Below, piece by piece: positions 30,812 to 47,251 of a stretch of 47,251 bases of DNA. Location of the stretch: IMG/VR virus record IMGVR_UViG_3300044616_001206, positions 1-47,251 of that record. One strand, 5' to 3'. The position numbers and the translations under genes are program-made. The notes beneath the pieces are model-generated. The model saw only the letters and a program-made list of their open reading frames with translations. It searched no databases and had not been told where the DNA came from. Numbering within the stretch: position 1 is the first letter of the stretch; every line of letters begins with the position of its first letter. The DNA comes from a virus.

Positions 30812-30819
30812 TATTTATA
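30812..30819 (+). promoter_or_regulatory. Candidate late promoter octamer TATTTATA
   Basis: Plus-strand TATTTATA ending 15 nt before the ATG at 30835, the first gene of the plus-strand cluster. Confidence 0.55.
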
Positions 30820-30834
30820 TAAAAGTCTATTTGA

Positions 30835-31578
30835 ATGAATAATTTTATAAAACAGGTAATTGAGGAGACGTTTTCGTCAAAAGCACAACAAAGATTCTTT
30901 TATGCTCAGGCAGGAAAGGGTGGAAAAAAGGGTAAAAAATGGTCTAAGTGGGCAAAAGAATACTCAGATAAGACGGATTTTAAAAAAATACCTGAGAAAG
31001 TAGAGAACGAAGAAGAGGTTGATGAAATTGTGGATAAACAAGGTAATATTTCTCGTGGTAAAAAACCATCAAACATTAATACCAAAGGTGTAACTTCTAA
31101 TACCACAACAGACGAGGTGGTTAAAACAGGTAGAGGTGCTATGGGTTCTTACGGAACAACGGGTGTTCAGAATTATAGAAGATATTGGGGTGAATCAGAT
31201 ATGTCAAAAGCATTAGGTGCGGAAGATACCATAATGAAAGATGCTGATTATGATGAAGCTAAAAAACATTTTGAAAAAAAATTAGGATTAGACGAACCGG
31301 AAACAGAAGAAAGATTGGCTCAAATGGGATATGACAAAAAATTACCAGATGATAAAGTTAGATTAGTTGAGAATCCTAAAAAGTTTATGGAGGAATATAT
31401 TGAAAGTATAATGAAGAAAAAAACTGAAGATTCCGATTTGGTAAAAAAAGAAGAAGAGATTGAAGAAGTAGAGTTAAACCCAATTATTAAGAGACAACTT
31501 AAGTCACTTAAAAATAGTATGAAAACTTATGGTTTAAAACCCGACCATATTATGAAAGGATTAAAAGACGATGAATAA
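30835..31578 (+). CDS. Probable virion-internal protein, KAQQRFF (DUF3008-like) N-terminus
   Basis: 247 highly charged residues. The N-terminus MNNFIKQVIEETFSSKAQQR combines a short amphipathic segment ending in VIEE with SSKAQQRFFYAQAGK. This resembles the SxAQQ... phage motif of small DUF3008-type proteins (SKAQQ ... A ... KG). The rest is Lys/Glu-rich and probably helical, with a possible coiled coil near the C-terminus (KTEDSDLVKKEEEIEEVELN). It is the first of five tightly spaced genes (overlaps of 8 and 1 nt). A head-core, scaffold-associated or internal head role is inferred from the tag and context; no catalytic motif is visible. Confidence 0.6.
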   Translation: MNNFIKQVIEETFSSKAQQRFFYAQAGKGGKKGKKWSKWAKEYSDKTDFKKIPEKVENEEEVDEIVDKQGNISRGKKPSNINTKGVTSNTTTDEVVKTGRGAMGSYGTTGVQNYRRYWGESDMSKALGAEDTIMKDADYDEAKKHFEKKLGLDEPETEERLAQMGYDKKLPDDKVRLVENPKKFMEEYIESIMKKKTEDSDLVKKEEEIEEVELNPIIKRQLKSLKNSMKTYGLKPDHIMKGLKDDE

Positions 31579-32065
31579 AGAGTTAAAAAGTAGAATATTT
31601 GATATACCTCAAAATATATTAGATAAGATTAACCATACCGTGGTTGGTCTTAATGGAGAACATGTGAACGGTATTCAAAGAGCTAAGAAACTTTTAACTG
31701 ATAAAAAAGTAAAATACGGACAACTTAAAAGAATTATTCATGATTTACAAAACATGGATAAAATTAATAATAAAGTTAAGTATGATTTAGCGGGTGGTGA
31801 TTTGATGGAAAAATGGGCGAAACAATTTTTACAAGGTGAAAGAGATTTAATTAGTAATAGAAAAGATGGTAGAAAACAAGCCGACGAAATTAGCGGTTTA
31901 ACAGGAGAAAGAAAAAATAGTCATTTGAAAAAACACACTAAAAGATTTGGTTTTAAAATACCTGTCAATTTAGTTAAGAGTAATTCAGATTTAAATTCAA
32001 TCTCATCAATAAAATTAACTGGTTTATTTGAACAAGTTGAAAGAATAAAAAAATTAATGTTATAA
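31571..32065 (+). CDS. Hypothetical protein with C-terminal RIKKLM tag (164 aa)
   Basis: 164 residues, basic and helical, starting MNKELKSRIFDIPQNILDKI. The ATG overlaps the previous gene by 8 nt. It contains GLNGEHVNGIQRAKKLLTDK, then YGQLKRIIHDLQNMD, and ends LTGLFEQVERIKKLML. This C-terminal peptide matches, by pattern, the ends or starts of other proteins in the cluster. I do not recognise the family. Probable virion-associated protein by context. Confidence 0.6.
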   Translation: MNKELKSRIFDIPQNILDKINHTVVGLNGEHVNGIQRAKKLLTDKKVKYGQLKRIIHDLQNMDKINNKVKYDLAGGDLMEKWAKQFLQGERDLISNRKDGRKQADEISGLTGERKNSHLKKHTKRFGFKIPVNLVKSNSDLNSISSIKLTGLFEQVERIKKLML

Positions 32066-32066
32066 T

Positions 32067-32444
32067 ATGGCAACTCAATTAGAACAACTATCTGAAAGAT
32101 TTAGAACAGAACATTTAACACGTAATTCATATAATGGTAATAACTTATATGATTCAAACAATAAAAATGCAATGTCAGATGGTGACGACAAAGGTAAAGG
32201 TGAAAATTCAGGTCAAGTAGGTTCATTAACGGACATACATTCAAGAACTGAATTATTAGCGAGAAATAGATTCAATTCAGATTCTACCTATAACTCAAGT
32301 TCACCTGATGCAATGTCAGATGGTGATGAGAGAGGAAAGGGTGAAAATAATGGACAAGTTGGTTCATTAACAGATATTAATAAAAGAAATGACTTAGTTG
32401 CTTCAAACAAATACGGAGAGAAAAAAAGATACCCAGATTTTTAA
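32067..32444 (+). CDS. Hypothetical protein with internal duplication (125 aa)
   Basis: 125 residues with two copies of a unit of about 50 residues. Copy one runs RNSYNGNNLYDSNN ... AMSDGDDKGKGENSGQVGSL, and copy two RNRFNSDSTYNSSS ... AMSDGDERGKGENNGQVGSL. A third partial copy of the start (SNKYGEKKRYPDF) ends the protein. It is hydrophilic, Asn/Gly/Ser-rich, probably extended. It starts 1 nt after the preceding stop and overlaps the next gene by one base (TAATG). Function unknown. Confidence 0.6.
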   Translation: MATQLEQLSERFRTEHLTRNSYNGNNLYDSNNKNAMSDGDDKGKGENSGQVGSLTDIHSRTELLARNRFNSDSTYNSSSPDAMSDGDERGKGENNGQVGSLTDINKRNDLVASNKYGEKKRYPDF

Positions 32445-33184
32445 TGAGTTTAAATAAAACAATATTAACTGTTCTTGAGGAACAAAACGTACTGAAAACG
32501 ACAAAAACAAAACCTATTGTTGATGCTATCAAAAATAGGAAGAAAGTTTCGTTTTATTATTCAGGACCAAGAAAACCAAAAAAGGATAGTGTAAAACCAG
32601 GTAAAAGAGTTGATGCGGAAGCGGTTGCTTTAGGGTTAAGTAAAAAGGGTAACCTTATTATGCGAGCATATATTCAACCGCCATCAGTATCTAAAAAAGG
32701 ATTTGGTAAAACAGGTTGGAGGACTTTTATGTTGAGTAGAATGAATGATGTTCAAATCAGTGATGAAACTTTTGATTCTAAAAGACCTCAATATAAGGAA
32801 GGTGATGATAATTCAATGTCAGTAACTTATGTTACATCTGATTGGACAAAACAACCTAAGGTTAAAAAAGAGAAAAAACCAACTGAACCAACACCACAAC
32901 CTTCAGAACCTGTTACAACACCTGAAAAACCAACAGCACCAACAACTACGGTTACCAAACCTGAAGTTAAACCTGAGAAATTACCTCAACCAAAACCACA
33001 AGAAGTTCCTGCCGCACCACAACAAGAACCACAATCAGTTGAACCTCAGACAACTGAACCAGAAAAAGAAGAGTTACCTCAACCAAAACCAGAGGAAAAA
33101 CCTTCTAAAACACCTGAGGAAAATGAAGAAGATAAAAATCTTCAAGAATCAGTAAATAAAATTAAGCGTTTAATGTTTTTTTAA
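32444..33184 (+). CDS. WYL-like domain protein with Pro-rich linker and terminal tags
   Basis: 246 residues. The N-terminal peptide MSLNKTILTVLEEQNVLKTT is followed (residues about 24-110) by PIVDAIKNRKKVSFYYSGP, AVALGLSKKGNLIMRAYIQP and GWRTFMLSRMNDVQISDETF. That matches the WYL domain outline (AIxxxxxhxFxYxG ... P-x-h ... Gx-hhhxAY ... WRxFxLSRI). A Pro/Glu/Lys-rich linker (135-230) leads to the C-terminal tag NLQESVNKIKRLMFF. There is no helix-turn-helix, although WYL proteins of bacteria usually have one and act as nucleic-acid or ligand-sensing regulators. The setting in a structural cluster suggests a virion-carried protein. WYL assignment is by eye. Confidence 0.55.
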   Translation: MSLNKTILTVLEEQNVLKTTKTKPIVDAIKNRKKVSFYYSGPRKPKKDSVKPGKRVDAEAVALGLSKKGNLIMRAYIQPPSVSKKGFGKTGWRTFMLSRMNDVQISDETFDSKRPQYKEGDDNSMSVTYVTSDWTKQPKVKKEKKPTEPTPQPSEPVTTPEKPTAPTTTVTKPEVKPEKLPQPKPQEVPAAPQQEPQSVEPQTTEPEKEELPQPKPEEKPSKTPEENEEDKNLQESVNKIKRLMFF

Positions 33185-33205
33185 AATACATTATATTATA
33201 AAAAA

Positions 33206-33213
33206 TATTTATC
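33206..33213 (+). promoter_or_regulatory. Octamer variant TATTTATC
   Basis: Plus-strand TATTTATC ending 3 nt before the ATG at 33217. Confidence 0.5.
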
Positions 33214-33216
33214 AAT

Positions 33217-33789
33217 ATGTCACAAGGACCAATATCAGAAAATGATTTAATGCGTAAATTAGTTAACGCTAAAAAGATTATGAATAAAGTTGATGACGGA
33301 AACTTTGAAAGAGGTCACGTTAACGAATCTATGTTATTATCTGACCCTTCTGAATTAATGGAATCACAAATACCACAACAAACAAGTAAAAGGTCTGTTG
33401 GTACTGTAAATGTTGATAAAATACAAAATTCAAAACTACCCGATTCAATAAAACGAGCAATGATTGAACATCCAATTGAACAAATGCCGTCAATATCATT
33501 AAGTGAAACTTTAGATATGGATTTTGTTAAAGGTGCAAAACGTTTAATGGAACAAGAAGGTGTATCATCAAAAAAATCACAACCACAACAAAGACAATCA
33601 GTTAGTTCAAATATTGATATGAACTCAATTGCAATTCTAATTGAAAATGCGGTTCGTAAAGTTATGGATGAAAAATTGAATCAAATTCTAACCGCTCAAA
33701 CAACATCTACTATTAATGAAAATTTAGTATTAAAGGTTGGAGATTCAATATTCAAAGGAAAAATTACAGGAGTAAATAAAGCAAAGTAA
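33217..33789 (+). CDS. Hypothetical, probable head/virion protein (190 aa)
   Basis: 190 residues. The N-terminus MSQGPISENDLMRKLVNAKK is an amphipathic helix; a similar one occurs at about residues 95-115 (MDFVKGAKRLMEQEG). The middle is Gln/Ser-rich and probably disordered. The C-terminal 60 residues (SIAILIENAVRKVMDEKLNQ, then LVLKVGDSIFKGKITGVNKA) look like a small folded domain that I recall as common in phage hypotheticals of this type. The gene is the last of the first plus-strand block and has its own late octamer. A head core or scaffold role is possible but not shown. Confidence 0.55.
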   Translation: MSQGPISENDLMRKLVNAKKIMNKVDDGNFERGHVNESMLLSDPSELMESQIPQQTSKRSVGTVNVDKIQNSKLPDSIKRAMIEHPIEQMPSISLSETLDMDFVKGAKRLMEQEGVSSKKSQPQQRQSVSSNIDMNSIAILIENAVRKVMDEKLNQILTAQTTSTINENLVLKVGDSIFKGKITGVNKAK

Positions 33790-33811
33790 TTTTGTTTTAT
33801 CATTTTTATTT

Positions 33812-33822
33812 GTTATATTATA
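33812..33822 (+). promoter_or_regulatory. Shared AT-rich element GTTATATTATA, candidate non-late promoter
   Basis: Identical to the 11-mer at 11642-11652. It lies 20 nt before the glycosyltransferase ATG at 33843 and is preceded by TTT. Confidence 0.3.
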
Positions 33823-33842
33823 GAATATAATAGTAATGAATA

Positions 33843-35069
33843 ATGTCAAAAATTAGAATTTTAGCAATCCCTTCGGATAAACATGGTGTGGGTAAGTTCA
33901 GAATGATGGACCCATATAAATTTATTGGTGAGAACCACTCTGGTGATGTTCACGTTGATATAACCTTTAACGCTGAAAATAACGATGAATACTTTTTAAA
34001 TTATGATATTGTTGTTTTTCATACATTCATACATCAATTAAATCACGATACAAATGTTGAAAGAGTTAAGTGGTTAAAATCAAAAGGAATTAAGGTTGTA
34101 ATGGATATTGATGATATGTGGGCCGTAGATCAAAGACACCCCATGTATCATCAAATTAAGAACTCTAAGATAGGTGAGATGAAAGTAGAGTTATTAAAGT
34201 TAGTAGATTATATTTCAACAACTACCCCAATATTTGCCGACACACTTAAGAAAAGATTGGGTGTAAATAATGTTATCGTTTTTCCAAATGCAGTAAACGA
34301 CGAAGAACCTCAATTCAAGTCAACTCCAATCAAATCAGATAAAATAAGATTCGGTTGGTTAGGTGGTTCATCTCATTTGTATGATTTAGAATTAATGCAA
34401 AATGGAATTTCATCAACACACAATTCATTCAAAGATAAAGTACAGTTTGTTTTATGTGGTTTTGATTTAAGAGGTAGCGTTACTGAGATAGATAGTAATA
34501 CAAAACAACAAAGACAAAGACCAATACAACCAATGGAAACTGTTTGGTATAAGTACGAAAAATTCTTTACTGACGATTATAAAGCGTTAAGTTCAGAATA
34601 TAAAGAATACTTACATTCGTTTACGGAATCACCATCATTTGAAGATGGTAACGAACCTTACAGAAGACGATGGACACGTGATGTAAACACATATGCAAGT
34701 AATTACAATTATTTTGATGTGTCATTAGCACCATTAGTTGAATCTGTATTTAATGCGAACAAATCACAATTAAAAGTTATTGAAGCAGGTTTTCATAAAA
34801 AGGCAATCATTGCAAGTGATACCGACCCATTCACTTTAGATTTAATTTCAGCAGTTGACGAAGGTAAATTTAACAATAAGGGAAATGCCTTATTAGTTGG
34901 TACAAAAAAGAATCATAAAGATTGGGCAAAACATATGAAACGTTTAGTTGAAAATCCTAATATGGTTGAAGACTTAGGTAATCGTTTATATGAAACAGTT
35001 AAAGACAAATATTCATTACGAAAAGTTTGTCAAGATAGAGTAGAATTTTTTAAATCAATAATAAAATAA
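33843..35069 (+). CDS. Glycosyltransferase, GT-B fold (GT4-like)
   Basis: 408 residues, MSKIRILAIPSDKHGVGKFR. The N-terminal Rossmann domain has GVGKFRMMDP and VVMDIDDMWAVDQRHP. After FGWLGGSSHLYDLELM (the start of the second domain) comes LAPLVESVFNANKSQLKVIE, AGFHKKAIIASDTDPF, the E-x7-E-like sugar-nucleotide-binding region of GT-B enzymes. It would transfer a sugar from a nucleotide donor to an unknown acceptor (DNA base, virion protein or host glycan). It starts with ATG at 33843; a competing ATG 7 nt upstream is out of frame. The late octamer is absent. Confidence 0.72.
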   Translation: MSKIRILAIPSDKHGVGKFRMMDPYKFIGENHSGDVHVDITFNAENNDEYFLNYDIVVFHTFIHQLNHDTNVERVKWLKSKGIKVVMDIDDMWAVDQRHPMYHQIKNSKIGEMKVELLKLVDYISTTTPIFADTLKKRLGVNNVIVFPNAVNDEEPQFKSTPIKSDKIRFGWLGGSSHLYDLELMQNGISSTHNSFKDKVQFVLCGFDLRGSVTEIDSNTKQQRQRPIQPMETVWYKYEKFFTDDYKALSSEYKEYLHSFTESPSFEDGNEPYRRRWTRDVNTYASNYNYFDVSLAPLVESVFNANKSQLKVIEAGFHKKAIIASDTDPFTLDLISAVDEGKFNNKGNALLVGTKKNHKDWAKHMKRLVENPNMVEDLGNRLYETVKDKYSLRKVCQDRVEFFKSIIK

Positions 35070-35075
35070 AACAAC

Positions 35076-35312
35076 ATGCATTATTTAGTTACAATCGGTT
35101 ATGAGACCGAACAAATGGACAGAGAAGGTAATCCTCGTACAAAAAAGTATAAATACATTATTGAAGCGGAGTCTGTTGAAGAAGCGACGATTGTTGCATC
35201 AAAATACAGAGCAGGAGATACACGTTCAAGTGAAAGTATTTCGGTGGCAAAAATGGCCATTGAATGTATCATTGATAGTAAAAATACTCCTGAGTATTAC
35301 AAATCAAAATAA
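35076..35312 (+). CDS. DUF4494-like small protein
   Basis: 78 residues, MHYLVTIGYETEQMDREGNP, then KYKYIIEAESVEEATIVASK and a second half with SISVAKMAIECIID. The layout of strand, KxYLVEAxSxxEA helix and a strand with a basic-hydrophobic alternation resembles DUF4494, a family common in Bacteroidota and their phages. It starts 6 nt after the glycosyltransferase stop codon. Function unknown. Confidence 0.6.
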   Translation: MHYLVTIGYETEQMDREGNPRTKKYKYIIEAESVEEATIVASKYRAGDTRSSESISVAKMAIECIIDSKNTPEYYKSK

Positions 35313-35318
35313 CAATTT

Positions 35319-35417
35319 AAACACCAACTGATATGGAATTTTATAGTCGTGAGATACAAATCATGCGTCAATCACAAAGTAAAATGGCATTGGAATATGT
35401 AACATCAGTTGGTGTTT
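35319..35417 (+). repeat. 14-nt inverted repeat bracketing a start codon
   Basis: AAACACCAACTGAT (35319-35332) and ATCAGTTGGTGTTT (35404-35417) are perfectly complementary. The left arm ends one base before the ATG of the next gene, so mRNA pairing could hide its translation start. Confidence 0.5.
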
Positions 35418-35554
35418 CTGTTACACTTGAAGAGTTAGTTAGAATTACGGATTTATTCGTGGAAATATGTTTAAGACCCCAAGACGATGACTTAAAAAAA
35501 AGAATTAAGGCATTAGATAAATGGTTAGAAGAAAAAAAGAAATTAAATGGATAA
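35333..35554 (+). CDS. Small hypothetical protein (73 aa)
   Basis: 73 residues, helical: MEFYSREIQIMRQSQSKMAL, then VTLEELVRITDLFVEICLRP, ending LDKWLEEKKKLNG. It overlaps the dUTPase start by 8 nt. The helical layout is typical of small phage accessory proteins. An inverted repeat brackets its start region. Function not recognised. Confidence 0.6.
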   Translation: MEFYSREIQIMRQSQSKMALEYVTSVGVSVTLEELVRITDLFVEICLRPQDDDLKKRIKALDKWLEEKKKLNG

Positions 35555-36164
35555 GAAAGAAGCAGAAGAATATTTGAAAAAATTAGAAGAGTTTGAAAAA
35601 ACAATTAACTCTGAAGATGATGAAGAAAATTTTGACCTTAACTTTATTGAGGAAATTAATACTTTATTATCTAAATTGGAAGGTGAGATTAATAAAAATG
35701 AAAATATTAAAACTGAAAGTATTATAAACAATTTTACTTTAGATATAAAAGTTAAAAAATTACATCCAAATGCCGTGATACCTTCGTATTCAAAAGTTGG
35801 TGATGCTGGTATGGATTTAACAATAACGAGTGAAATAGAAAATACAACATTTAGTGTATCATATGGTTTTGGTATTGCAATGGAAATTCCCAAAAATTAC
35901 CTTGGGTTAGTTTTCCCTCGTTCATCGGTTAGAAATCAAGAATTAGTCTTGTCCAATTGTGTTGGTGTAATTGATAGTGGGTATAGAGGTGAATTACAGG
36001 CCACATTTAAGAAAACTAATGGTTTAGACTCATTAAAATATAAGATAGGTGAAAGAGGTGCTCAGATTATCATATTACCTTACCCACAAGTAAAAATGGT
36101 TGAATCCGAAGAACTATCAAACACTGAAAGAGGTGATGGTGGTTTTGGATCTACCGGTGTTTGA
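35547..36164 (+). CDS. dut: dUTPase with N-terminal extension
   Basis: 205 residues. All five trimeric dUTPase motifs are visible: 1 VGDAGMDLT (84-92), 2 PRSSV (124-128), 3 VGVIDSGYRGELQ (139-151, catalytic Asp143), 4 GERGAQIIILP (168-178), 5 RGDGGFGSTG (195-204). It hydrolyses dUTP to dUMP, keeping uracil out of DNA and feeding dTTP synthesis. Residues 1-60 are an acidic, helical extension (KKEAEEYLKKLEEFEKTI) not needed for catalysis; its role is unknown, possibly oligomer contact. The start overlaps the preceding gene by 8 nt. Confidence 0.93.
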   Translation: MDKKEAEEYLKKLEEFEKTINSEDDEENFDLNFIEEINTLLSKLEGEINKNENIKTESIINNFTLDIKVKKLHPNAVIPSYSKVGDAGMDLTITSEIENTTFSVSYGFGIAMEIPKNYLGLVFPRSSVRNQELVLSNCVGVIDSGYRGELQATFKKTNGLDSLKYKIGERGAQIIILPYPQVKMVESEELSNTERGDGGFGSTGV

Positions 36165-36167
36165 TGA

Positions 36168-36175
36168 TATTTATT
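36168..36175 (+). promoter_or_regulatory. Octamer variant TATTTATT
   Basis: Plus-strand TATTTATT in the 42-nt gap between dut and the PhoH-like gene, 31 nt before the TTG start. Confidence 0.3.
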
Positions 36176-36206
36176 ACTAATAAACGAACATTTAAAACGT
36201 TAAATT

Positions 36207-36935
36207 TTGGCTTTAAAACAAAAGACGAGAAAAGACCAACCACCCGTATTAGTAGAAGAGAAGAAAATATCACATAAAGATAGGATTAGACAAATTATCA
36301 AACGTCCTAAAGAAAAGTTCTTAACCAAAAACCAAGAAACCTATTGGAATATTCTTGGTGAAAATCAAATAACGTTATGTTTCGGTCCTGCGGGTGTAGG
36401 TAAGTCGTACATCGCTATGAAACGAGCTATAGACCTATTATATGACGATTCTAACAAGTATGAGAAGATTATCATAGTTAGACCGGCAGTTGAGGCTGAG
36501 GAAAAATTAGGATCACTACCAGGTGGTTTAGAAGAGAAATTAGACCCGTACATTTATCCATCATATTATCTTTTAAATAAGATAATTGGTAAAGAATCAA
36601 GAGAAGAATTAAAAGATCAAGGTTATATTGAAGTTGCCGCACTTGCTTACATGAGAGGTTGGAATGTAGATAATACTATCCTTGTTTTTGAAGAAGCTCA
36701 AAACGCGACTCCATCACAAATCAAATTATTACTAACTCGTATTGGATTTAATTCTAAATTCTTTATTTCAGGAGATCTTGAACAATCAGATAAATTCAGA
36801 GATAAAACAAAATCTGGTTTATATGATGCAAAGAAAAGATTACAAGATGTCAAAGGAATCGGAATCTTTGAATTTGGTATGGAAGATATTGTAAGAAATC
36901 CAATTATCGGAGAAATATTAAATAGATACGAATAG
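36207..36935 (+). CDS. phoH: PhoH-like P-loop ATPase
   Basis: 242 residues. Walker A is FGPAGVGKSYIA (59-70), Walker B ILVFEEAQNATPSQ (158-171), followed by LLLTRIGFNSKFFISGDLEQ, the sensor-like SGDxxQ of PhoH. The region EEKLGSLPGGLEEKLDPYIY, then PS, is diagnostic of the PhoH family. The biochemical role of phage PhoH is unsettled (ATPase/RNA-helicase-like). The only usable start is TTG at 36207. It lies in the nucleotide-metabolism part of the plus-strand cluster. Confidence 0.88.
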   Translation: MALKQKTRKDQPPVLVEEKKISHKDRIRQIIKRPKEKFLTKNQETYWNILGENQITLCFGPAGVGKSYIAMKRAIDLLYDDSNKYEKIIIVRPAVEAEEKLGSLPGGLEEKLDPYIYPSYYLLNKIIGKESREELKDQGYIEVAALAYMRGWNVDNTILVFEEAQNATPSQIKLLLTRIGFNSKFFISGDLEQSDKFRDKTKSGLYDAKKRLQDVKGIGIFEFGMEDIVRNPIIGEILNRYE

Positions 36936-36972
36936 GGTTTACAAATGGTCCTAATCATATTATATTTCCTTT

Positions 36973-37647
36973 ATGGAAATATTCATTAGTATAGATGGGG
37001 TTGTAAGAAATACAATTCAAAAATTTGACTATCATTATAACGACGCATATCTAAGTTCGGAGTTTGAAAATCCCGATAACTTTCAATACGGTGTTACCGA
37101 ACCAATTCAAAATAATAATCTTTTAGATTCTTATAGTTTTCAATCTAAAGAAGAGTTTGAATACTTTTTATTTATTGAATATCCAATTGAGATTTTTGGA
37201 CATGCAGGTTTAAGTTATTCTACTACATTTACGGATTTAAATAAATTAATTTATGAAAATCCAGAACACAATTTTACACTTATCGGTTGTGATGAATTAG
37301 GTAAAGCAAAACCAGCATCACTTTTCTTTTTATCTAAAAATGGATTTTTAGGTAATAGTATTAAATTTATTAAAAGTGACGATATTCAATCTACATGGAA
37401 CATGTGTGATGTCTGGATTACTGACAATGAAATGATATTAAATTCTTGTCCTGAAAATAAAAGTGCCATTAAATTCAAAACGACTTATAATCAATACTTT
37501 ACTTATAAAAAAGAAATAACTAAATTTACTGAAATACAAGAACCATGGTTGAAATCTTTGGAAAATCCTACTACATTGACCTTGACGGAATCACAGAAAA
37601 ATGTAGAACAGGAGGAACAATACCAGACGAAGACGGAGGAGAAGTAA
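36973..37647 (+). CDS. Putative HAD-like protein (224 aa)
   Basis: 224 residues, starting MEIFISIDGVVRNTIQKFDY. The opening resembles HAD motif I (hhhDhDGVhxNT), but the first Asp is replaced by Ser, so catalysis is doubtful. Later FTLIGCDELGKAKPASLFFL, a Thr/Ser-x-x-Lys-like region, and MCDVWITDNEMIL (a possible acidic motif with hydrophobic strand before it) fit a HAD-like Rossmann fold. It may be a degenerate phosphatase or nucleotidase, or a fold relative with another role. The last 103 nt overlap the next gene in another frame. Confidence 0.45.
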   Translation: MEIFISIDGVVRNTIQKFDYHYNDAYLSSEFENPDNFQYGVTEPIQNNNLLDSYSFQSKEEFEYFLFIEYPIEIFGHAGLSYSTTFTDLNKLIYENPEHNFTLIGCDELGKAKPASLFFLSKNGFLGNSIKFIKSDDIQSTWNMCDVWITDNEMILNSCPENKSAIKFKTTYNQYFTYKKEITKFTEIQEPWLKSLENPTTLTLTESQKNVEQEEQYQTKTEEK

Positions 37648-38880: not shown

Positions 38881-38881
38881 T

Positions 38882-39664
38882 ATGAAAAATATAACAGTAA
38901 TATTACCTTTACATTCAGTAGAGGGTGATTATAAAGAAATGTTAAAAAATGCAATTACATCAGTTGGAGATTTTCATAACGATGTTATTGTTTCAATAGT
39001 TTGTCCAAAATCAGTTGGAGACCAACTTAATTTTCCGATTACAGATAAGGTTGAAATTAAAATTATTACAAATGAAGGACAAACAGATTTTTGTTCCCAA
39101 GTAAATTTGGGTATTGAAAAATGTGAAACTGAGTGGTTTTCAATTTTAGAAGTTGATGACGAATTTAAACCTATTTGGTTAAAATCAGTAAATGAATATG
39201 TGAAAACATATACTGATGTTGATGTGTTTTTACCAATCGTAAGAGATATTAATGTTGAAGGTAAGTTTATAAGTTTTACAAACGAATCAGTTTGGGCATA
39301 TGGGTTTACTGAGAAACAAGGATATTTGGATAATGAAGTTTTATTAGATTTCCAAAATTACCAAATCAGTGGTGGTTTATATAGAACACAAGTTGTAAAA
39401 GATAATGGTTCATTTAAAGAGAATATCAAATTAACATTTGGATATGAATTCTTTTTAAGATTAACACATAATGGTGTTAAAATTATGTCTGTTCCTAAAA
39501 TTGGATATCAACATTTGAATTTTAGAGAAGAGTCTTTGTTTTGGGAATATAAAAATAATGAAGAAACAAAGTTGAAAGAAGATGAAGTTAAATTTTGGTT
39601 AGAAACAGCTAAAAAAGAATTTTTCTTTAAAAATAAACGAGATGTTAATTATGAAGTAATTTAA
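38882..39664 (+). CDS. Glycosyltransferase, GT-A fold (GT2-like)
   Basis: 260 residues, MKNITVILPLHSVEGDYKEM. The start (ITVILPLHSV), GQTDFCSQVNLGIEKCETEW and FSILEVDDEFKPIWLKSV (the DxD-like metal site at D92-D93) are those of GT2 enzymes. ISGGLYRTQVVKDNGSFKEN with FGYEFFLRLTHNG fits the C-terminal acceptor side. It starts one base after the GT-B gene stop codon. Its stop overlaps the gp55-like start codon (TTAATG). Sugar and acceptor unknown. Confidence 0.75.
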   Translation: MKNITVILPLHSVEGDYKEMLKNAITSVGDFHNDVIVSIVCPKSVGDQLNFPITDKVEIKIITNEGQTDFCSQVNLGIEKCETEWFSILEVDDEFKPIWLKSVNEYVKTYTDVDVFLPIVRDINVEGKFISFTNESVWAYGFTEKQGYLDNEVLLDFQNYQISGGLYRTQVVKDNGSFKENIKLTFGYEFFLRLTHNGVKIMSVPKIGYQHLNFREESLFWEYKNNEETKLKEDEVKFWLETAKKEFFFKNKRDVNYEVI

Positions 39665-40365
39665 TGCCAAGACCAAGAACCCAAAAAATATACTTTGGTG
39701 AAGATCAGGAAAAAGCCGTTGTAAAATATCTAGAAAGTACTGACGAACTTGAGAGAAATAAAATATTCAATGAATTTTTACGAGAGCCATTGATTATTAT
39801 GGTTGAAAGTATTATAAGAAGATATAAGTTATATAGAAAAGATATGGAGTTTGAGGAAATCCATACAGATACCATGTCTTTCTTAATAACAAAAATTAGT
39901 AAATTTGACCATACAAAAAATACTAAAGCCTATTCATATTTTGGTACAATCTGTAAAAACTACCTTATGGGTGCAATACAGAAAGACACCAAAGAACAAA
40001 ATAGACAAGTATCGTATGATGACATTTCATCTGATATTGAAGAAGGTAGACCTGATTTAACATATGTTATTGATGAACATATAATTGACTATCAAGCGGT
40101 AATAATTAAACTAACTTCAGATTTGGAGAATTTTGTGGAAACTCAAAATTTAAATGAAAATGAAAGAAAGTTAGGTTATGCGTTATTAGAAATATTTGGA
40201 AACTTTGATAAAATTTTCCAAGTTGGTGATGGTAATAAATTCAACAAAAACCTTATCCTACTCTCGTTACGAGAAATGACCTCTTTATCTACAAAGGAAA
40301 TTAGAATCTCTCTTAAAAGGTTTAAAAAGCTTTATGACGGGATTTTAGGTGGGTTTTTAGAATAA
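39664..40365 (+). CDS. 55: Late-transcription sigma factor, T4 gp55-like
   Basis: 233 residues. Residues 40-110 match sigma-70 region 2: REPLIIMVESIIRRYKLYRK, then FEEIHTDTMSFLITKISKFD, KNTKAYSYFGTICKNYLMGA and IQKDTKEQNRQVSYDDI. There is no region 4, as in T4 gp55 (185 aa). Such factors direct host RNA polymerase to late promoters that have only a -10 element, together with the sliding clamp. The C-terminus (LYDGILGGFLE) is short, hydrophobic and acidic, similar in kind to the clamp-binding tail of gp55. The partner gp33 and the clamp gp45 were not found here. The gene is overlapped at its start by the GT2-like gene. Confidence 0.85.
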   Translation: MPRPRTQKIYFGEDQEKAVVKYLESTDELERNKIFNEFLREPLIIMVESIIRRYKLYRKDMEFEEIHTDTMSFLITKISKFDHTKNTKAYSYFGTICKNYLMGAIQKDTKEQNRQVSYDDISSDIEEGRPDLTYVIDEHIIDYQAVIIKLTSDLENFVETQNLNENERKLGYALLEIFGNFDKIFQVGDGNKFNKNLILLSLREMTSLSTKEIRISLKRFKKLYDGILGGFLE

Positions 40366-40368
40366 ACC

Positions 40369-40376
40369 TATTTATA
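40369..40376 (+). promoter_or_regulatory. Candidate late promoter octamer TATTTATA
   Basis: Plus-strand TATTTATA ending 3 nt before the ATG at 40380, immediately downstream of the gp55-like gene. Confidence 0.55.
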
Positions 40377-40379
40377 GAT

Positions 40380-40760
40380 ATGAGAGAGAGAAAAAACAAT
40401 ATTACATTAGACGTTGACTCTGCCCTCGCATTAATGCAGGAAATTTACAATGATGTGGTGGAAAATAGAAACACCGCCAATCAAATCATGCGTAAAATGA
40501 TGTCCTTTATGAAGGATGCTGAGGATATGAGTACTATTGGTCCAGTTATAAAAGAACAACAGAAAATATTAAATGACTGTACTGAAAAGAAAATTTCACT
40601 AGTTAAACTCCAAGGTGTCTTACTTAAACAAACTACTGGTGGAAGTGGTGGAAAAGGTGGACCTATGGGTAAACTTGAATTATCGGATGAGGATAGAGAA
40701 TTGTTAGATAAGATGATTAATAACGGACCTGAAATGAAAAACGATAATTATTCATTATAA
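40380..40760 (+). CDS. Small helical hypothetical protein (126 aa)
   Basis: 126 residues. Helical N-terminal two thirds (SALALMQEIYNDVVENRNTA, then KEQQKILNDCTEKKISLVKL), then a Gly-rich hinge (TTGGSGGKGGPMGK) and a short acidic helix (LSDEDRELLDKMINN). Its stop overlaps the next start (TAATG). It lies next to the gp55-like gene and could be a small terminase-like or gp33-like factor, but no diagnostic motif is present, so it stays unassigned. Confidence 0.6.
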   Translation: MRERKNNITLDVDSALALMQEIYNDVVENRNTANQIMRKMMSFMKDAEDMSTIGPVIKEQQKILNDCTEKKISLVKLQGVLLKQTTGGSGGKGGPMGKLELSDEDRELLDKMINNGPEMKNDNYSL

Positions 40761-42742
40761 TGAGTTTAAAAGATACCATAGAGAGACTTAAATCTAAAAT
40801 TGATATTATCCATCAATCTATAGACAGTGATATTTTACAAAGAAAAATAGAACTTACTCCTGAAGATTTAAAATTACCGGAATTTGATACGTCAAAAATT
40901 GCAAACAAGTTAGAACAGTTTCGTGATACTCTTAGAAAAAGGAGATTAAGGAAACAAAATAAAGATAATATATTTTCACAGTTAATTGAGATTTTTGATA
41001 AAGTATTATCAGCTGGAAGAAGTGCTGCTGAATCTGAAAGATTTGTTGGAAATCAAAGGTTACGTCAACACGTTATTGACTCCGCAGAAATTACCGCAAA
41101 TTCCGCTAAAACAATTGTAATGGATTGTGTAAAATCTGCATTATTTGCTGGCGACGGTATTTGTGGAGGTAATAGTTTATTTTTTGGTATTGATTTTGAT
41201 AAAGTTAATATTAAACCAAAAGAAATTGACTTTTTAAATATGTTACGTGTTGATCCCGAGAGTGACTACGGTAAATTAATGTATGAAAAAGAAAATGTTG
41301 TAAATAACAAAGAAAAAATTAATAGAAATCTTTATGATGAGTTTGTAAATAAAACTGGATATACCTATACAACACCATCAAATAAAGATTTATTTACTGC
41401 AACTTGGAATTCTACAGGTCAAACATTTACTATATCGGGTTTAACTCAATCAACAGGAATTACAGTAAATCAATTTCTTGATGATTATTATAGTAATATG
41501 GAATGGCCAGATATTAATCATATCTTAAGAAACGTCATGTTATTAACAATTAAAGCCGCTAACGTTAGTGCTAATAAAAAAGGTGTTTCCATAGGAACAT
41601 CTTTGAGCGGTATGGAAGACTCATTAAGTTGGTCACCTGAACTTGATGATGCGATAAATTATTTAGAACGAATGTTAAATAAATTATTTGCATTTTGTAA
41701 TAATAGAGGTAGAATGTTAAGTGGACAAACAGCCACGGAATTATTAAATGAAAATGAAGAAGATGATGAATTTTATTTTGATTTTGATGATGTTGAAGGT
41801 ATTGATTTAGAGGAAGAAGATGCGAGGAAAAGAAAAGTTTTAAAATTTAAAGATTGTAATAATTTTGAAGTTCCATATAATGCAACCATTATGGAGGACT
41901 TTATTTATTTAGAAGATAAATTAAATAGAAACGATTGGGTTAGAAAGACTTTAGATAAATCTGCCATGGACGCATATGAACAATCAGATTTTAGTATAGA
42001 ATTACCTGATTATCAACTATCAATAAACTTAGGATTTATTCTTAACATTCCTAAGGCAATTGTAATGTCTATCATATCACCTAAAATGTTTTTACCAATA
42101 GTTACAATTTACAAATTATTTACGCCGAACATTACTATAGATACGAATATTACTGCGGCAGAAATAATGAAGAGATTAAAGAAATTATTTAAATGTGTAA
42201 TTACTGAGTTGTTTTGGAAATTCTTAAGAGAATTATGGAAAAAACTTAAAGCAGATTTAAAGAATTTCCTACAAAGAATTATTAGAAGAATTTTGAGAGA
42301 AAAATTAAAAAGATATTATATTGTAGTGATGGCACTTATTTCATTATTAAAGAAAATAATTGAAAATGGTTTAGATAATTGTGCTGATTTATTTGCGGCA
42401 ATAGGAGCCGCAATTGATGGTGCATTAGATTCATCAGGTGTTGGAAGTCTTCCAAACGCGTTATTATTAATGGCAGATAAATTACCTGGATTTAGTGCTA
42501 TTAAGACACATATGGAGTCTGTTGAGAAAATGAAAGCGTCAGGTGTATTTACTGGAGACGTCAACGGAGAACCGAATTATCTAATGGCGGCATTTTTGGC
42601 TAACACAACATCTATGGCGGATAACATTGCTAAAACACCGTTTATATCAACTAATAAAGGAATGGTGGGTTCTTCAGCTTTAGGTCCGGTATATATACCA
42701 CCAGGTCAGACCCAACAAGCAGCATTAATGAAAACAAAATAA
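40760..42742 (+). CDS. Large virion protein with hydrophobic helical region (660 aa)
   Basis: 660 residues, family not recognised. Residues 1-130 are helical and basic. Residues 200-245 look like a short beta-rich insertion (TATWNSTGQTFTISGLTQST). An acidic stretch lies at 330-356 (NENEEDDEFYFDFDDVEGID). Then come two hydrophobic segments (about 424-455, LGFILNIPKAIVMSIISPKM, and 518-532) either side of a strongly basic amphipathic helix (471-518), and an Ala/Gly-rich segment (541-560). The C-terminus is GPVYIPPGQTQQAALMKTK. The layout recalls a membrane-active or head/baseplate-associated protein, such as one ejected on infection. It sits between late-type genes and precedes the spike protein. 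Confidence 0.6.
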   Translation: MSLKDTIERLKSKIDIIHQSIDSDILQRKIELTPEDLKLPEFDTSKIANKLEQFRDTLRKRRLRKQNKDNIFSQLIEIFDKVLSAGRSAAESERFVGNQRLRQHVIDSAEITANSAKTIVMDCVKSALFAGDGICGGNSLFFGIDFDKVNIKPKEIDFLNMLRVDPESDYGKLMYEKENVVNNKEKINRNLYDEFVNKTGYTYTTPSNKDLFTATWNSTGQTFTISGLTQSTGITVNQFLDDYYSNMEWPDINHILRNVMLLTIKAANVSANKKGVSIGTSLSGMEDSLSWSPELDDAINYLERMLNKLFAFCNNRGRMLSGQTATELLNENEEDDEFYFDFDDVEGIDLEEEDARKRKVLKFKDCNNFEVPYNATIMEDFIYLEDKLNRNDWVRKTLDKSAMDAYEQSDFSIELPDYQLSINLGFILNIPKAIVMSIISPKMFLPIVTIYKLFTPNITIDTNITAAEIMKRLKKLFKCVITELFWKFLRELWKKLKADLKNFLQRIIRRILREKLKRYYIVVMALISLLKKIIENGLDNCADLFAAIGAAIDGALDSSGVGSLPNALLLMADKLPGFSAIKTHMESVEKMKASGVFTGDVNGEPNYLMAAFLANTTSMADNIAKTPFISTNKGMVGSSALGPVYIPPGQTQQAALMKTK

Positions 42743-42743
42743 G

Positions 42744-42944
42744 ATGGATAGTAACAAATTATTAGAAATTGCAAATGACGTTGAAAACAAATCAAATAAT
42801 GATTTGTTAAATGTTGCCGCACAACTATATGAAGAATTTGAAATGACTAAAGATTTAATTATAAATTTAACCAAACATTTAGATGGTGTTGAATCTTTAT
42901 ATAATAAAGTTAATAAAGAAATTGAAAAAAGAACCAAATTATAA
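42744..42944 (+). CDS. Small coiled-coil protein (66 aa)
   Basis: 66 residues, almost wholly helical (MDSNKLLEIANDVENKSNND, then LLNVAAQLYEEFEMTKDLII), acidic to neutral. One base separates it from the upstream stop, and its TAATG stop/start overlaps the spike gene. It may chaperone or trimerise a neighbour. Function unknown. Confidence 0.6.
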   Translation: MDSNKLLEIANDVENKSNNDLLNVAAQLYEEFEMTKDLIINLTKHLDGVESLYNKVNKEIEKRTKL

Positions 42945-44509
42945 TGAAAATAATAGATATTGGTATATGTGTTGATAATGTTGACCCATTAGGTATAGGT
43001 AGAATTAGATGTTCTAGATATAATGACATTACCGCTCAAAAGGAAAGGGCATTAGAATATGATGCGTGGGATGATAATGATTTATTCACGGCTAATCCTT
43101 TTTTACCATTAAACATTAACTTCGTACCAGAAATAGGTCAATCGGTTAAAATTATTTCATACGATCCGAGAAAAGAAAACGTAAACGTTGAATATGTTGC
43201 GGGTCCATTTACCAGTATGTACGATTTTAACGGACAAACATATTCACAACAAATTGCTCATACATCATATGGTGTAAACGTTGAAAAGAAACCACCGCTA
43301 AAAGATAAAAGTGGTAAGTTTTTATTTAAGGATAGTGAAAACGTATTTGCAAATAATAAAGATTTTGCAATTTATGGAAAAAGTGGTTCCGATATATTAT
43401 TTACCGAAGGTGGTTTACAATTAAGAGGGGGAAAACTTCTTTCAAAAGAAACTGGAAATAATAAAAAAAGAGAAAAAATGATTGATTATCCAATTATGGC
43501 GAATAAATCATCAAAACTTTATTTAAAGAAATTTCCTAAAAAAATGTCATTGGAAAATGAACCAATTGAACAAACTATTTTTAATGATAAAGATTTAAAT
43601 TATCTTATTGAATATACAATTAGTGGAAATACTACATCAGGTTCAAATAATTTAACAGGTTTAAATCCCTCAACAACATATCCAACTACAATATCTTTAT
43701 ACGTTTATAAAATAATTAACCCGTTAGGTGATACATTTAAAACTAATTTTTTCAACGAACACAGTGAATCTCCGTTTGCCAATTTAAAATTGATAAATCT
43801 TAACGGTGGTGCAAATGAAGCAACGTACAGTACAAATATTACAAATGTTAATAACATTTATATTGATATTAGAAACAAATTATTTGAAATAGACGATTTA
43901 GGTTTAGTTGAATTAGATGACAATTATAATAGTGACGATTTACATCCCTATTATTTTAGACCAAGTAAAAATTTTAGAAATTTAGTTCCTTCTACGGGTG
44001 CAACGCAAACAATTGAGGCTGAAAATAAAGATATTATTTTAAGAAATGTTAACGTAAGAAGGGTAGGACCAACAAGTGGTTTAGTTTATTCCACGACATC
44101 GTCTAGAGTTACTTCTGAACAAATTAAATCAAGTGTAGATAAGATTAAAATTATTGATAATTCTCCTGAACAAACATTTGGTGCGGTTGTCTCCGATAAA
44201 ATATACTTTTTATCAACAGATTTAGGAACAAACGAATCTCCAATACCCGTTCCATTTAATAACTTAGATAAATATGAATTTACCCAAGAGGACTATATTA
44301 AACGTATTGACCCATATACCTATTCAACAGTGAGAGGGGAGAATTTGTTGGAAGTATTAAGAAAAATAATTGACGTGATGTTAACTCATAGACATAACCC
44401 ATTGATGCCAATTGTTAACCAATTTGATTATCAAGATGGTAATGAACTTAAGGAGTTGTATAAGACCTTAGAGAACGATATTTTAAATAAGTCAATTAGA
44501 ATCAACTAA
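42944..44509 (+). CDS. Baseplate hub/spike protein with gp5-like N-terminal OB domain
   Basis: 521 residues. The N-terminal OB-fold region reads MKIIDIGICVDNVDPLGIGR, then IRCSRYND, FLPLNINFVPEIGQSVKIIS, a layout I associate with the gp5/VgrG OB domain (GxVxxxxDPxxxGRVRVR ... P-P-xxGxxV). No lysozyme domain, as in T4 gp5, is visible. A central beta-rich region (160-370) and a C-terminal helix (NLLEVLRKIIDVMLTHRHNP) follow. It probably forms part of the central hub that punctures the outer membrane. The ATG overlaps the previous stop. Confidence 0.6.
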   Translation: MKIIDIGICVDNVDPLGIGRIRCSRYNDITAQKERALEYDAWDDNDLFTANPFLPLNINFVPEIGQSVKIISYDPRKENVNVEYVAGPFTSMYDFNGQTYSQQIAHTSYGVNVEKKPPLKDKSGKFLFKDSENVFANNKDFAIYGKSGSDILFTEGGLQLRGGKLLSKETGNNKKREKMIDYPIMANKSSKLYLKKFPKKMSLENEPIEQTIFNDKDLNYLIEYTISGNTTSGSNNLTGLNPSTTYPTTISLYVYKIINPLGDTFKTNFFNEHSESPFANLKLINLNGGANEATYSTNITNVNNIYIDIRNKLFEIDDLGLVELDDNYNSDDLHPYYFRPSKNFRNLVPSTGATQTIEAENKDIILRNVNVRRVGPTSGLVYSTTSSRVTSEQIKSSVDKIKIIDNSPEQTFGAVVSDKIYFLSTDLGTNESPIPVPFNNLDKYEFTQEDYIKRIDPYTYSTVRGENLLEVLRKIIDVMLTHRHNPLMPIVNQFDYQDGNELKELYKTLENDILNKSIRIN

Positions 44510-44514
44510 TATGA

Positions 44515-44522
44515 TATTTATA
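44515..44522 (+). promoter_or_regulatory. Candidate late promoter octamer TATTTATA
   Basis: Plus-strand TATTTATA ending 10 nt before the ATG at 44533. Confidence 0.55.
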
Positions 44523-44532
44523 AAGAAAAAAG

Positions 44533-45906
44533 ATGTCATATTTCCGTTCATATTTTGAGAAAAATAACACGATTTTAAAGGATTTACACGTAAACACGTC
44601 AAAAAACCCGACCACCGAAATTTTTTATGGTTCGGGGTTTTCCAAATTTATATTTAAAATAGATTTAACCGACTTACAAAATAAAGTAGATAATGGAGAT
44701 TTAATACTATCTGAAGGAACAACACATACACTTCATTTGACTAATTGTATATTTGGAAATGAAACTTTTAAAGGAGCAAACAGAGGTACAGGTAGAGAAA
44801 GAGCAACATCTTTTGATTTAATATTATTTGAAATTGAAGAATCTTGGGATGAGGGTATTGGATTTGATTATTCCGATAATGACAACGAAATGTCAACTGG
44901 TAACAAATCTTTCGTTCAAAGACCTTCAAACTGGTTTTATAAAACAACAACAGATGAGTGGGAGACACCAGGTATTTACACAACTGGAGTTACAATTTTA
45001 GATACAATTCATTTTGATAATGGAAATGAAAATATAAATGTAGATATCACAAGTTACATAAATGATGTACTACAAGGTGAGGTAACCAATAATGGATTAG
45101 GATTGGCGTTCTCAATACCATATGAAACATTATCAACCGATATTGATAAGTCAGTTTCATTTTTTACAAAATACACACAAACATTTTTTGAACCATATGT
45201 TGAAAGTTTTTTCAACGATAGAATATTAGATAATAGATATAGTTTTGTAGAAAAAACAAATCAAAATCTTTACCTATATGTATCAAAAGACGGTAATTAT
45301 CATAATTTAGATGAGTTACCATTGGTTGATATTTTGGATAGTTCTAATAACCCAATAAACGGTCTTACAGGTTTAACATCTGAACTAGTTCGTAAGGGTG
45401 TTTATAAAGTAACATTCGGAATTGGTGGAACATTATGTGACGGAAGAAGATTTTTCTATGATAATTGGACAAATTTGATTATTGATGGAGCGTCTATTGA
45501 GGATACAAAACAAAAGTTTATTCCTAAAAAACTAACATCATCAATCACATTAGGTGAGAACAATACAAGTTTTGAGAGATTTAAAGTTCAATATTATGGA
45601 ATACAACAAAATGAAAAGATTATTAGAGGAGATATAAGAAAGATTGTAACTAATTTCCGTTCAATTGAAAACCCATTAAACACGGTTATAAATGAATCAT
45701 ATTATAGAGTTTTTATCAAAGAAGGTAATACTAATGTAATTGTACATGATTGGACATTAATGGATGTGGCAAATGAAAATTTCTTTATGTTAGATACAAT
45801 AAACTACATCCCAAGAGAATACTTTATTGAAATTAAGGGGAAATATAACAATGAAGAAATCCATTATAACGAATATATCAAATTTGAGATTTTATCCGAA
45901 AAATAA
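44533..45906 (+). CDS. Probable baseplate/virion structural protein (457 aa)
   Basis: 457 residues, largely beta, no signal peptide. MSYFRSYFEKNNTILKDLHV starts it. An INVDITSYINDVLQGEVTNN segment with GLGLAFSI follows, then FFTKYTQTFFEPYVESFFND and NRYSFVEKTNQNLYLYV, a pattern I recall from T4-like phage structural hypotheticals. The DxTxYIN...GxIxNNGLGLAF part resembles carbohydrate-binding or DNRLRE-type modules. The C-terminus is made of Ig-like strands (GDIRKIVTNFRSIEN ... YIKFEILSEK). It follows the spike protein and has its own late octamer, which favours a baseplate or wedge role. Confidence 0.6.
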   Translation: MSYFRSYFEKNNTILKDLHVNTSKNPTTEIFYGSGFSKFIFKIDLTDLQNKVDNGDLILSEGTTHTLHLTNCIFGNETFKGANRGTGRERATSFDLILFEIEESWDEGIGFDYSDNDNEMSTGNKSFVQRPSNWFYKTTTDEWETPGIYTTGVTILDTIHFDNGNENINVDITSYINDVLQGEVTNNGLGLAFSIPYETLSTDIDKSVSFFTKYTQTFFEPYVESFFNDRILDNRYSFVEKTNQNLYLYVSKDGNYHNLDELPLVDILDSSNNPINGLTGLTSELVRKGVYKVTFGIGGTLCDGRRFFYDNWTNLIIDGASIEDTKQKFIPKKLTSSITLGENNTSFERFKVQYYGIQQNEKIIRGDIRKIVTNFRSIENPLNTVINESYYRVFIKEGNTNVIVHDWTLMDVANENFFMLDTINYIPREYFIEIKGKYNNEEIHYNEYIKFEILSEK

Positions 45907-45909
45907 AAA

Positions 45910-45917
45910 TATTTATA
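45910..45917 (+). promoter_or_regulatory. Candidate late promoter octamer TATTTATA
   Basis: Plus-strand TATTTATA ending 4 nt before the ATG at 45922. Confidence 0.55.
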
Positions 45918-45921
45918 AAAT

Positions 45922-46578
45922 ATGAAAATAGTAAAATTAACCGAATCTCAACTTAAGAAAGTCGTTTCAAATGTCATCAAAGAAAATGAGATGACTGAAA
46001 ATTATATGTTTTTTGGTAACTTACAACAAATACACAGACAATGTGAAATGTTGTTAAAGATGAACCCGAAAGAATTGGATAACATTATTAAAAATGGTCA
46101 CGATTGGGCGGATGATCACGTATCTGAAGCTAAGAATAATATGGACCAAGTTTTTGACTTCTTTATGAATGAAACTAAACGTAAAGATAAAGAAGATGTA
46201 ACTGCCGATATGAATAGTTTTAGTATGAACGAAGAAGGACAACTTAACGAAAAATGTTGGGATGGGTACAAACAAGTTGGTTCTAAGATGAAGAACGGTA
46301 AAAAAGTTCCGAACTGTGTACCGGTAAGTGAAGCGAGTAGTCCTGCACAACAGGCGGCAATAGCAATCAATATGAAGAAAAAAGGTGTTGAACCTAAAAA
46401 CGAATCTACTGAAGAAGAAATTGACGAGAGTAAGAACTGTCCAACAGACCCTGCGAAGTGGGCAGCATCTAAGGCTAAAGCTAAAGCTAAATATGACGTA
46501 TATCCTTCCGCCTATTCAAATGGCTTCGCGGCAAAAGATTATAAAGCGAAAGGTGGTGGATGGAAAAAATGTAAATAG
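45922..46578 (+). CDS. Probable virion-internal protein with N-terminal tag and two small Cys motifs
   Basis: 218 residues in four parts. The N-terminus MKIVKLTESQLKKVVSNVIK ends in KENE, an amphipathic tag. A helical region (30-90) follows. Then KCWDGYKQVGSKMKNGKKVP, NCVP is a short Cys-x-G-Y-K-x-x-G motif. The C-terminus NCPTDPAKWAASKAKAKAKY, DVYPSAYSNGFAAKDYKAKG, GGWKKC has the KYDVYPSAYANxxAxKxYKxxGGGW pattern that I recall from a DUF5872-like family in phages and algal viruses. Both motifs recur in unrelated phage proteins. It may be a DNA-associated head protein, given the many lysines. Function unknown. Confidence 0.6.
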   Translation: MKIVKLTESQLKKVVSNVIKENEMTENYMFFGNLQQIHRQCEMLLKMNPKELDNIIKNGHDWADDHVSEAKNNMDQVFDFFMNETKRKDKEDVTADMNSFSMNEEGQLNEKCWDGYKQVGSKMKNGKKVPNCVPVSEASSPAQQAAIAINMKKKGVEPKNESTEEEIDESKNCPTDPAKWAASKAKAKAKYDVYPSAYSNGFAAKDYKAKGGGWKKCK

Positions 46579-47251
46579 ATGAACTTACAAGAGAATATAC
46601 AAAGAATTAGACAAATGATGATTTCTGAGGAGATGGTACAATCTGATGCTTGGAAATCTATAAAGAAAACATTGGACGTTCTTAAAAAGAAGAAAAAAGT
46701 TTTATTATTAAGTTGTTCTAATAGACATAATTGGGACAAAAATGATATTGATATACCAAAATCTAAAATGATTGCGATGTATCTTAAGGATGAATTGGGT
46801 GATAAATCAACATTGATAGACGTTTCAGAATTAAACATAGTTCCTTGTGAGGGTAACGTATCAAGAAAAGACGGTAATAGTTGTGGTTTATTAAAATCAA
46901 AACTTAAGGATAAAGATAAAAATCCAACCGGTCACCATAGATGTTGGGCCAGTGTTAACAACCCTAAAGATGAACTTTGGAAAATAAGTAAAGAACTATT
47001 TGAATCAGATGCTGTGGTATTTCTAAGTTCCGTTAGATGGGGACAAACAAATATGTTTTATCAAAATCTAATCGAACGTCTAACTTGGATAGAAAATAGA
47101 CACACAGCGTTAGGTGAATCTAATTTAGTTAAAGATATTGAAACTGGTTTTATATGTACGGGTCAAAATTTTAACGGTGTAAATGTTAATGATTTACAAA
47201 AGAAAGTTCATGAATTTTATGGCTTCAAAACAAATGATGATTTATATTGGA
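46579..47251 (+). CDS. NAD(P)H-dependent FMN reductase / flavodoxin-fold protein, 3' end cut
   Basis: The frame starts ATG directly after the preceding stop codon and stays open for 224 codons to the right edge. The first 20 residues are MNLQENIQRIRQMMISEEMV, a peptide matching the tags of neighbouring proteins. The flavodoxin-like core follows: KKVLLLSCSNRHN (first strand and phosphate loop), SKMIAMYLKDEL, LIDVSELNIVPCEGNVS (a Cys at the usual place), then ELFESDAVVFLSSVRWGQTN and FYQNLIERLTWIENRH, as in the flavodoxin_2/FMN_red families. It would reduce quinones, flavin or disulfide-linked targets using NAD(P)H. The C-terminus is outside the window. Confidence 0.7.
   Translation, partial: MNLQENIQRIRQMMISEEMVQSDAWKSIKKTLDVLKKKKKVLLLSCSNRHNWDKNDIDIPKSKMIAMYLKDELGDKSTLIDVSELNIVPCEGNVSRKDGNSCGLLKSKLKDKDKNPTGHHRCWASVNNPKDELWKISKELFESDAVVFLSSVRWGQTNMFYQNLIERLTWIENRHTALGESNLVKDIETGFICTGQNFNGVNVNDLQKKVHEFYGFKTNDDLYW

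Follow-up and report, generated by a model that had tools for sequence, protein, structure and literature searches.

Based on comparisons of protein termini within and between related phage genomes, we propose that the short N-terminal peptides shared by many unrelated proteins of this phage group are likely cleavable capsid-targeting tags of the T4 type, carried by 19-47 proteins per genome. At the sequence level, the sharing of the tags, their conserved motif, the match of this motif to the capsid maturation site, the exchange of tags at its Glu, late-type promoter motifs and the presence of a protease are shown; docking, cleavage, packaging and injection are inferred from sequence alone. 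The window, i.e. the whole stretch of DNA analysed, corresponds to an entire IMG/VR record (47,251 bases) and represents a fragment of a phage genome. A first-pass annotation had claimed that unrelated proteins share terminal peptides there, and had proposed that these sort proteins into the head as in T4, being cut after Glu and carried by an enzyme among other cargo. The former claim holds and extends far beyond the window; the latter is supported by sequence evidence, with packaging and cleavage unshown.

All six peptides listed in that annotation were found in the window at the termini it had given (Table 1), and the start of the 46579 protein reads MNLQENIQRIRQMMISEE. The single 'second class' ending in Glu that had been proposed is, in contrast, corrected to several types: its member at 45922 belongs to class 2 (RLTESDLxRIVKRVIxE), that at 30835 resembles the short class-5 type (LIKKILKEE), and the start of the 32444 protein is conserved in a form of its own among orthologs. 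Orthologs of the 30835 protein have other N-termini. Tail genes for sheath, tube and baseplate hub are present in the window, along with a gp55-like sigma factor assigned by inspection (39664-40365); a gp21-type protease had no match anywhere in the 47,251 bases. For a 660-residue protein of the window, the sole IMG/VR relative is a near-identical contig. Two minus-strand regions (28021-30474 and 22223-25876) encode long GSSGTSG collagen-like repeats and TPTPTP-rich proteins, which are probably fibre-like. Residues 105-138 and 164-215 of the 45922-46578 protein form two small modules, GYKQVG...KVPNCVP and KWAASKAKAKAKYDVYPSAYSNG...GGGW, which recur on other phage proteins, many of them from cyanophage.

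Table 1. Tag types of the phage group, and tags, tagged proteins and promoter motifs located in the window.
Feature	Position	Strand	Remark
Class 1, MNLQENIxRIKxMMG(V/L)IxE			Variant MNLQESIRRILREE
Class 2, MKKIIRLTESDLxRIVKRVIxE			Large relative MKIIITESQYxxLLxE
Class 3, MKNLFxLTEEEKNRILNLHExATKxxYLxEQ
Class 4, MxxxLxEExxxMKYLFGYxRGVVISEQ
Class 5, MKxLIRKILREE
Class-1 tag MNLQENIQRIRQMM-ISEE on flavodoxin-like reductase	46579..46632	+	Then I-S-E
Tagged NAD(P)H/FMN reductase-like protein	46579..47250	+	Truncated by window end; 253 aa when complete, in L049
Class-2 tag MKIVKLTESQLKKVVSNVIKE, ends I-K-E	45922..45984	+	Start of 45922 protein
Tagged conserved protein, YMFFSNLQQM family	45922..46578	+	Most orthologs close to major capsid gene
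Short N-terminal tag MNNFIKQVIEE, ends I-E-E	30835..30867	+	Start of 30835 protein
N-terminal tag MSLNKTILTVLEE	32444..32482	+	Orthologs begin MKLYNTFKSLI-x-E
C-terminal class-1-like peptide NLQESVNKIKRLM	33137..33175	+	Residues 232-244 of 246 in 32444-33184; preceded by Pro/Glu/Lys-rich linker
C-terminal peptide GLFEQVERIKKLM	32021..32059	+	Residues 151-163 of 164 in 31571-32065
TATTTAT, putative late promoter element before 45922	45910..45916	+	46579 directly downstream, same strand
TATTTAT, putative late promoter element before 30835	30812..30818	+
TATTTAT before 33217	33206..33212	+	33217 is a conserved gene of the same cluster
TATTTAT(A)	9587, 6373, 4853	-
TATTTAT(A)	30812, 33206, 44515, 45910	+

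In an unbiased test, N-terminal 35-residue segments were compared within each genome, with homologous pairs removed. The 2,814 open reading frames used came from the window, eight large related records and immuto, a cultured Flavobacterium phage. At a score of at least 50, 846 non-homologous within-genome pairs involving 353 proteins were obtained, compared with 3 pairs (6 proteins) for shuffled N-termini and 15 pairs (18 proteins) for internal segments. Some of these are accounted for by signal peptides, low-complexity frames or tail-fibre starts; many others fall into a few tag types, of which at least five exist. A strict three-class profile detected 245 N-terminal tags and none in shuffled N-termini, corresponding to 19-47 tagged proteins per large relative, and profile matches concentrate in the first 14 residues (393, against 14 past residue 45). 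Some tagged families are paralogous within one genome. The mean column identity of 124 tagged representatives is only 4%, yet they have M...L.E.....I........E in common.

The pattern search at protein termini that the first-pass annotation had suggested as a check was run on the relatives and on IMG/VR, and places the tags mostly at the N-terminus. Using a degenerate DNA pattern for NLQEN[IV]xRIxxMM against IMG/VR contigs, the class-1 start MNLQENIxRIKxMM was recovered in at least 119 stretches. Most of 162 class-1 instances start at residue 2, just after the ATG, and they sit on many differing bodies, often on several adjacent genes. The class-1 and class-2 patterns were both absent from 84,980 bacterial and archaeal genomes; tblastn of two short tags against cultured phages gave no match either, peptides of that length being uninformative. 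The 642-kb megaphage relative of 45922 (L444, LR756502) lacks the tags of these phages. Many of its proteins begin like MKYLKRFNEE, MKKFNEFNRVNE or NIKSFDSFNE, and these starts ending in F-N-E may represent an equivalent tag.

The tag types end in [I/L/V]-x-Glu, the cleavage motif of T4 gp21, which cuts after L/I-x-E (PMC9026906). The agreement is weaker for the MKIIITESQ type, some tags of which have no clear second [ILV]xE. In a held-out class-2 sample, collected with a search pattern that ended before the Glu, each of the 90 unrelated body clusters has [ILV]-x-E; x is variable (2.4 bits), and conservation drops to background within a few residues after the Glu. For class 1, a Glu is located at +3 or +4 in 88%, and for class 3, [ILVMF]xE[QNS] occurs within 20 residues in 15 of 17 clusters as against 1 of 17 in the next 20. 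T4 gp23 is cut at Glu65. This column is invariant in an alignment of gp23 from T4, three relatives and immuto (LTE, INE, LNE or VSE), the relatives reading L-I-N-E-A or L-L-N-E-S. With the Glu65 column shared and the tags ending in [ILV]-x-E, the tags thus end like the capsid maturation site of the same phages.

Homologous bodies bear different tags, joined at the Glu. One body family is found with three tags, MKKIIRLTESDLTRIVNRVINE-NQEEVDRILDK, MNLHENINRIKEMMGIISE-NDELTNRILDK and MKIIVTENQVNRLFINE-NEELLNKILDK, the Glu residues of which align, and further swaps on homologous bodies involve class 1 and class 5, class 2 and class 3, and MKIVITESK and the class-1 variant. Orthologs of the 45922 protein near the capsid gene carry class-2 (G001, G004, G013) or class-5-like tags (G003, G009); reductase orthologs keep the class-1 tag, one with a GVITE insertion. 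Only individual pairs are cited here. A body cluster of 239 members was dropped as evidence, since single linkage had joined it artificially through small domains in common; regex matching had also misassigned some of the class labels in it (protein 102905 of G001 is class 2, not class 5). At the DNA level, the class-1 tags of 37 bodies show unusually little synonymous variation (Ile ATA 37/37, genome 33%; Asn AAC 33/37, genome 26%; Leu CTA 23/37, genome 7%), making a recent spread as DNA probable. In class-2 tags, synonymous sites vary and the amino acids are kept.

Co-occurrence with a prohead protease gene had been put forward as a further check. Of 14 large records with tags, 11 encode both a gp23-type capsid protein and a gp21-type (S77) protease; the remaining three have neither and are possibly fragments. 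No relative with a gp23-type capsid gene lacks the gp21-type protease. The large records were chosen by their class-1 tag, so this co-occurrence is biased and represents consistency rather than proof. Many head proteins, among them capsid, portal and protease, do not carry these particular tags. In immuto, a 73-residue protein between portal and protease and a 75-residue protein after the protease share their starts with genes elsewhere in the genome; the former takes the place where T4 has gp67 and gp68. In four relatives (G001, G003, G004, G011) a small basic frame of 62-67 residues lies on the opposite strand between portal and protease. By appearance it might be ribosomal protein bS21, its family membership being inferred. 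In the 269-kb record G002, the gp23-type capsid gene and the S77 protease each occur twice (31-35 kb and 233-238 kb; L135, L132, L146, L129), either through an assembly that merged two phages or through a genuine duplication. Tagged genes form long clusters with mixed tag types, e.g. at 223-262 kb in G003. In G006 (133.8-140 kb; L203:13772-20000), about 40 tiny frames in a row start with MKTKxxLGKSV and contain SVxxSVxxSV repeats.

Within 60 nt upstream, TATTTAT is present for 57/101 structural, 86/219 tagged, 5/79 DNA-metabolism and 239/1048 other long genes (tagged against DNA-metabolism genes, p=5e-9; tagged against other, p=1e-6), and the Bacteroidota-type TAnnTTTG is rare before tagged genes (7/219, against 104/1048). 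The T4 late promoter TATAAATA was also considered and is not enriched upstream of tagged genes, the enriched motif being TATTTAT(A). This is likely the late promoter element of the phage group, as judged from sequence alone without expression data. Before tagged genes it is often just 10-14 nt from the start codon, and nearly leaderless late messages would therefore result. In the window, TATTTAT precedes the genes at 30835, 33217, 44533 and 45922.

Cargo domains were assigned to the 124 tagged representatives with Pfam and PHROGs. Those directed at the cell wall comprise peptidoglycan-binding, lysozyme, transglycosylase, D,D-peptidase, Tae4 and L,D-transpeptidase domains; others include ADP-ribosyltransferases, a sigma-70 factor, AAA domains and a GDSL lipase, in addition to the reductase of the window. 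This range fits delivery at entry, and it cannot be excluded that the endolysins and the sigma factor act in the producing cell, too. For the reductase at full length, the structure model (mean pLDDT 65) predicts a low-confidence helix at residues 3-16 followed by a folded domain, placing the tag outside the fold. The model resembles FMN and quinone reductases with modest scores, and a sequence search of solved structures with the reductase gave no match.

The first-pass annotation had also claimed that C-terminal copies share the class-1 pattern, which holds well for the end of the 32444 protein and only weakly for that of the 31571 protein. The former scores 28.1 against the class-1 profile, compared with 18.1 for the best of 6,375 shuffles, and is missing from orthologs; the latter, at 18.1, is not above the best shuffle, and most of its orthologs have a related terminus resembling TENLKRINELIKKII. 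Two comparable termini are found in G011 and G006, on proteins with peptidase-like starts, a function assigned by inspection only. General C-terminal similarity was not retained as evidence, as its enrichment derives largely from low-complexity tandem frames of G006 and from paralogs, and few matches were kept. No cleavage site follows the C-terminal peptides, and by eye no consistent gp21 motif precedes them. These versions are fewer and weaker than the N-terminal ones and a role as sorting tags is not shown; conceivably, they bind the same partner uncut. We note that the last 16 residues of the immuto scaffold (L248:25626-26867), VSEQVSRWQKLAGII, resemble the cargo tag SEQFRRMQKLAGIIT of that phage and are the best match to it in the genome beyond the two tagged proteins. 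Scaffolds of the large relatives end in NLIES...LRMKDLM, which is loosely class-1-like. The immuto case, a single one, suggests what the tag may imitate. A bolder, merely possible reading is that the tag types form a sorting code, with a separate docking place in the head for every type and with some types mimicking the scaffold tail; if true, cargo would be loaded by mimicry of a scaffold docking peptide, at either terminus.

In the proposed mechanism, tagged proteins would be made together with the head proteins late in infection, and the amphipathic tag helix would dock them into the prohead core or shell. A gp21-type (S77) protease would then cut at the end of the terminal [I/L/V]-x-E, behind its Glu, and release the mature body inside the head, with delivery to the next host along with the DNA as a possibility. 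Several tag types coexist and are interchangeable on one body, and the phage could therefore recruit new cargo by gaining a tag. No virion proteomics was found for any of these tagged phages.

Alternatively, the tags may be docking helices for another late structure, such as the tail, baseplate, scaffold surface, host membrane or lysis complex, with the Glu as a binding residue that remains uncut. Cleavage data are absent, the C-terminal versions hint at binding without cutting, and much of the cargo consists of cell-wall hydrolases, which are also found in tails and lysis. However, the conserved feature is exactly [ILV]-x-E with x free, as at the capsid maturation site, and both conservation and exchange have their boundary there, rendering this explanation unlikely. 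Less likely still is that the shared 5' sequence is a recombination cassette aiding gene shuffling, whose peptide has no sorting function. The unusual synonymous uniformity of class-1 tag DNA speaks for it, but the class-2 tags vary at synonymous sites while preserving their amino acids, and dissimilar tags with a common amphipathic helix and [ILV]-x-E replace each other on one body.

That the peptides are ordinary fold parts of proteins related by common whole-protein ancestry, which the first-pass annotation had named as refuting its proposal, was tested and found unsupported, and is all but excluded. The paralogy of some tagged families is in its favour. Homologous pairs were, however, removed from the N-terminal comparison, and the common pattern persists among the 124 representatives with their low mean identity. 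The tags occur on many unrelated bodies and are exchanged between homologous ones, and the reductase model sets the tag apart as a helix of low confidence ahead of the flavodoxin-like domain; peptides forming part of larger conserved folds are therefore not what is observed.

Among known systems, capsid targeting in T4 is the closest, where the targeting sequences of the internal proteins IPI-IPIII and the propeptides of Alt are gp21 substrates (PMC9026906, PMC3012670). Both systems place a short N-terminal peptide ending in L/I-x-E on unrelated proteins, with the same protease and capsid families in the genome and an ADP-ribosyltransferase among the cargo, as with Alt, which also has a C-terminal propeptide. 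In contrast to T4, the present phages have at least five tag types per group where T4 has one, 19-47 tagged proteins per genome (strict profile) where T4 has a few, much wider cargo, tags swapped on homologous bodies, their own tag sequences and probably Bacteroidota hosts. The internal-protein loci of T-even phages encode diverse injected proteins with a common signal sequence, Ip1-3 of T4 blocking type IV restriction enzymes (PMC12373910). Variable small genes are likewise recognised by a common N-terminal signal here, in longer clusters with mixed tag types. Many head proteins cut after Glu and a large internal cargo are also known from the phiKZ-like giants SPN3US and 201phi2-1 (PMC9026906, PMC5694885), which, unlike the present phages, for which cutting is inferred, belong to a different group with a diverged protease. 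The place and strand of the S21-like frame in several relatives are those described for the bS21-encoding Bacteroidetes phages, and N-terminal tags are not reported in the relevant sections of that work (PMC9723584). No description of the tag system was found in the literature searched, subscription journals being outside its coverage.

In conclusion, the tag system is likely a T4-like capsid-targeting system, greatly expanded and diversified, with packaging, cleavage and injection as its predictions. If so, dozens of unannotated genes per large aquatic phage would become predicted head cargo by a tag search alone, and many of these would probably be effectors of the first minute, directed at host defence, cell wall or transcription. 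The system would also supply several new peptides as candidates for bringing proteins into phage heads, and would reveal a route of cargo recruitment, in which a tag is added and the cut site is kept.
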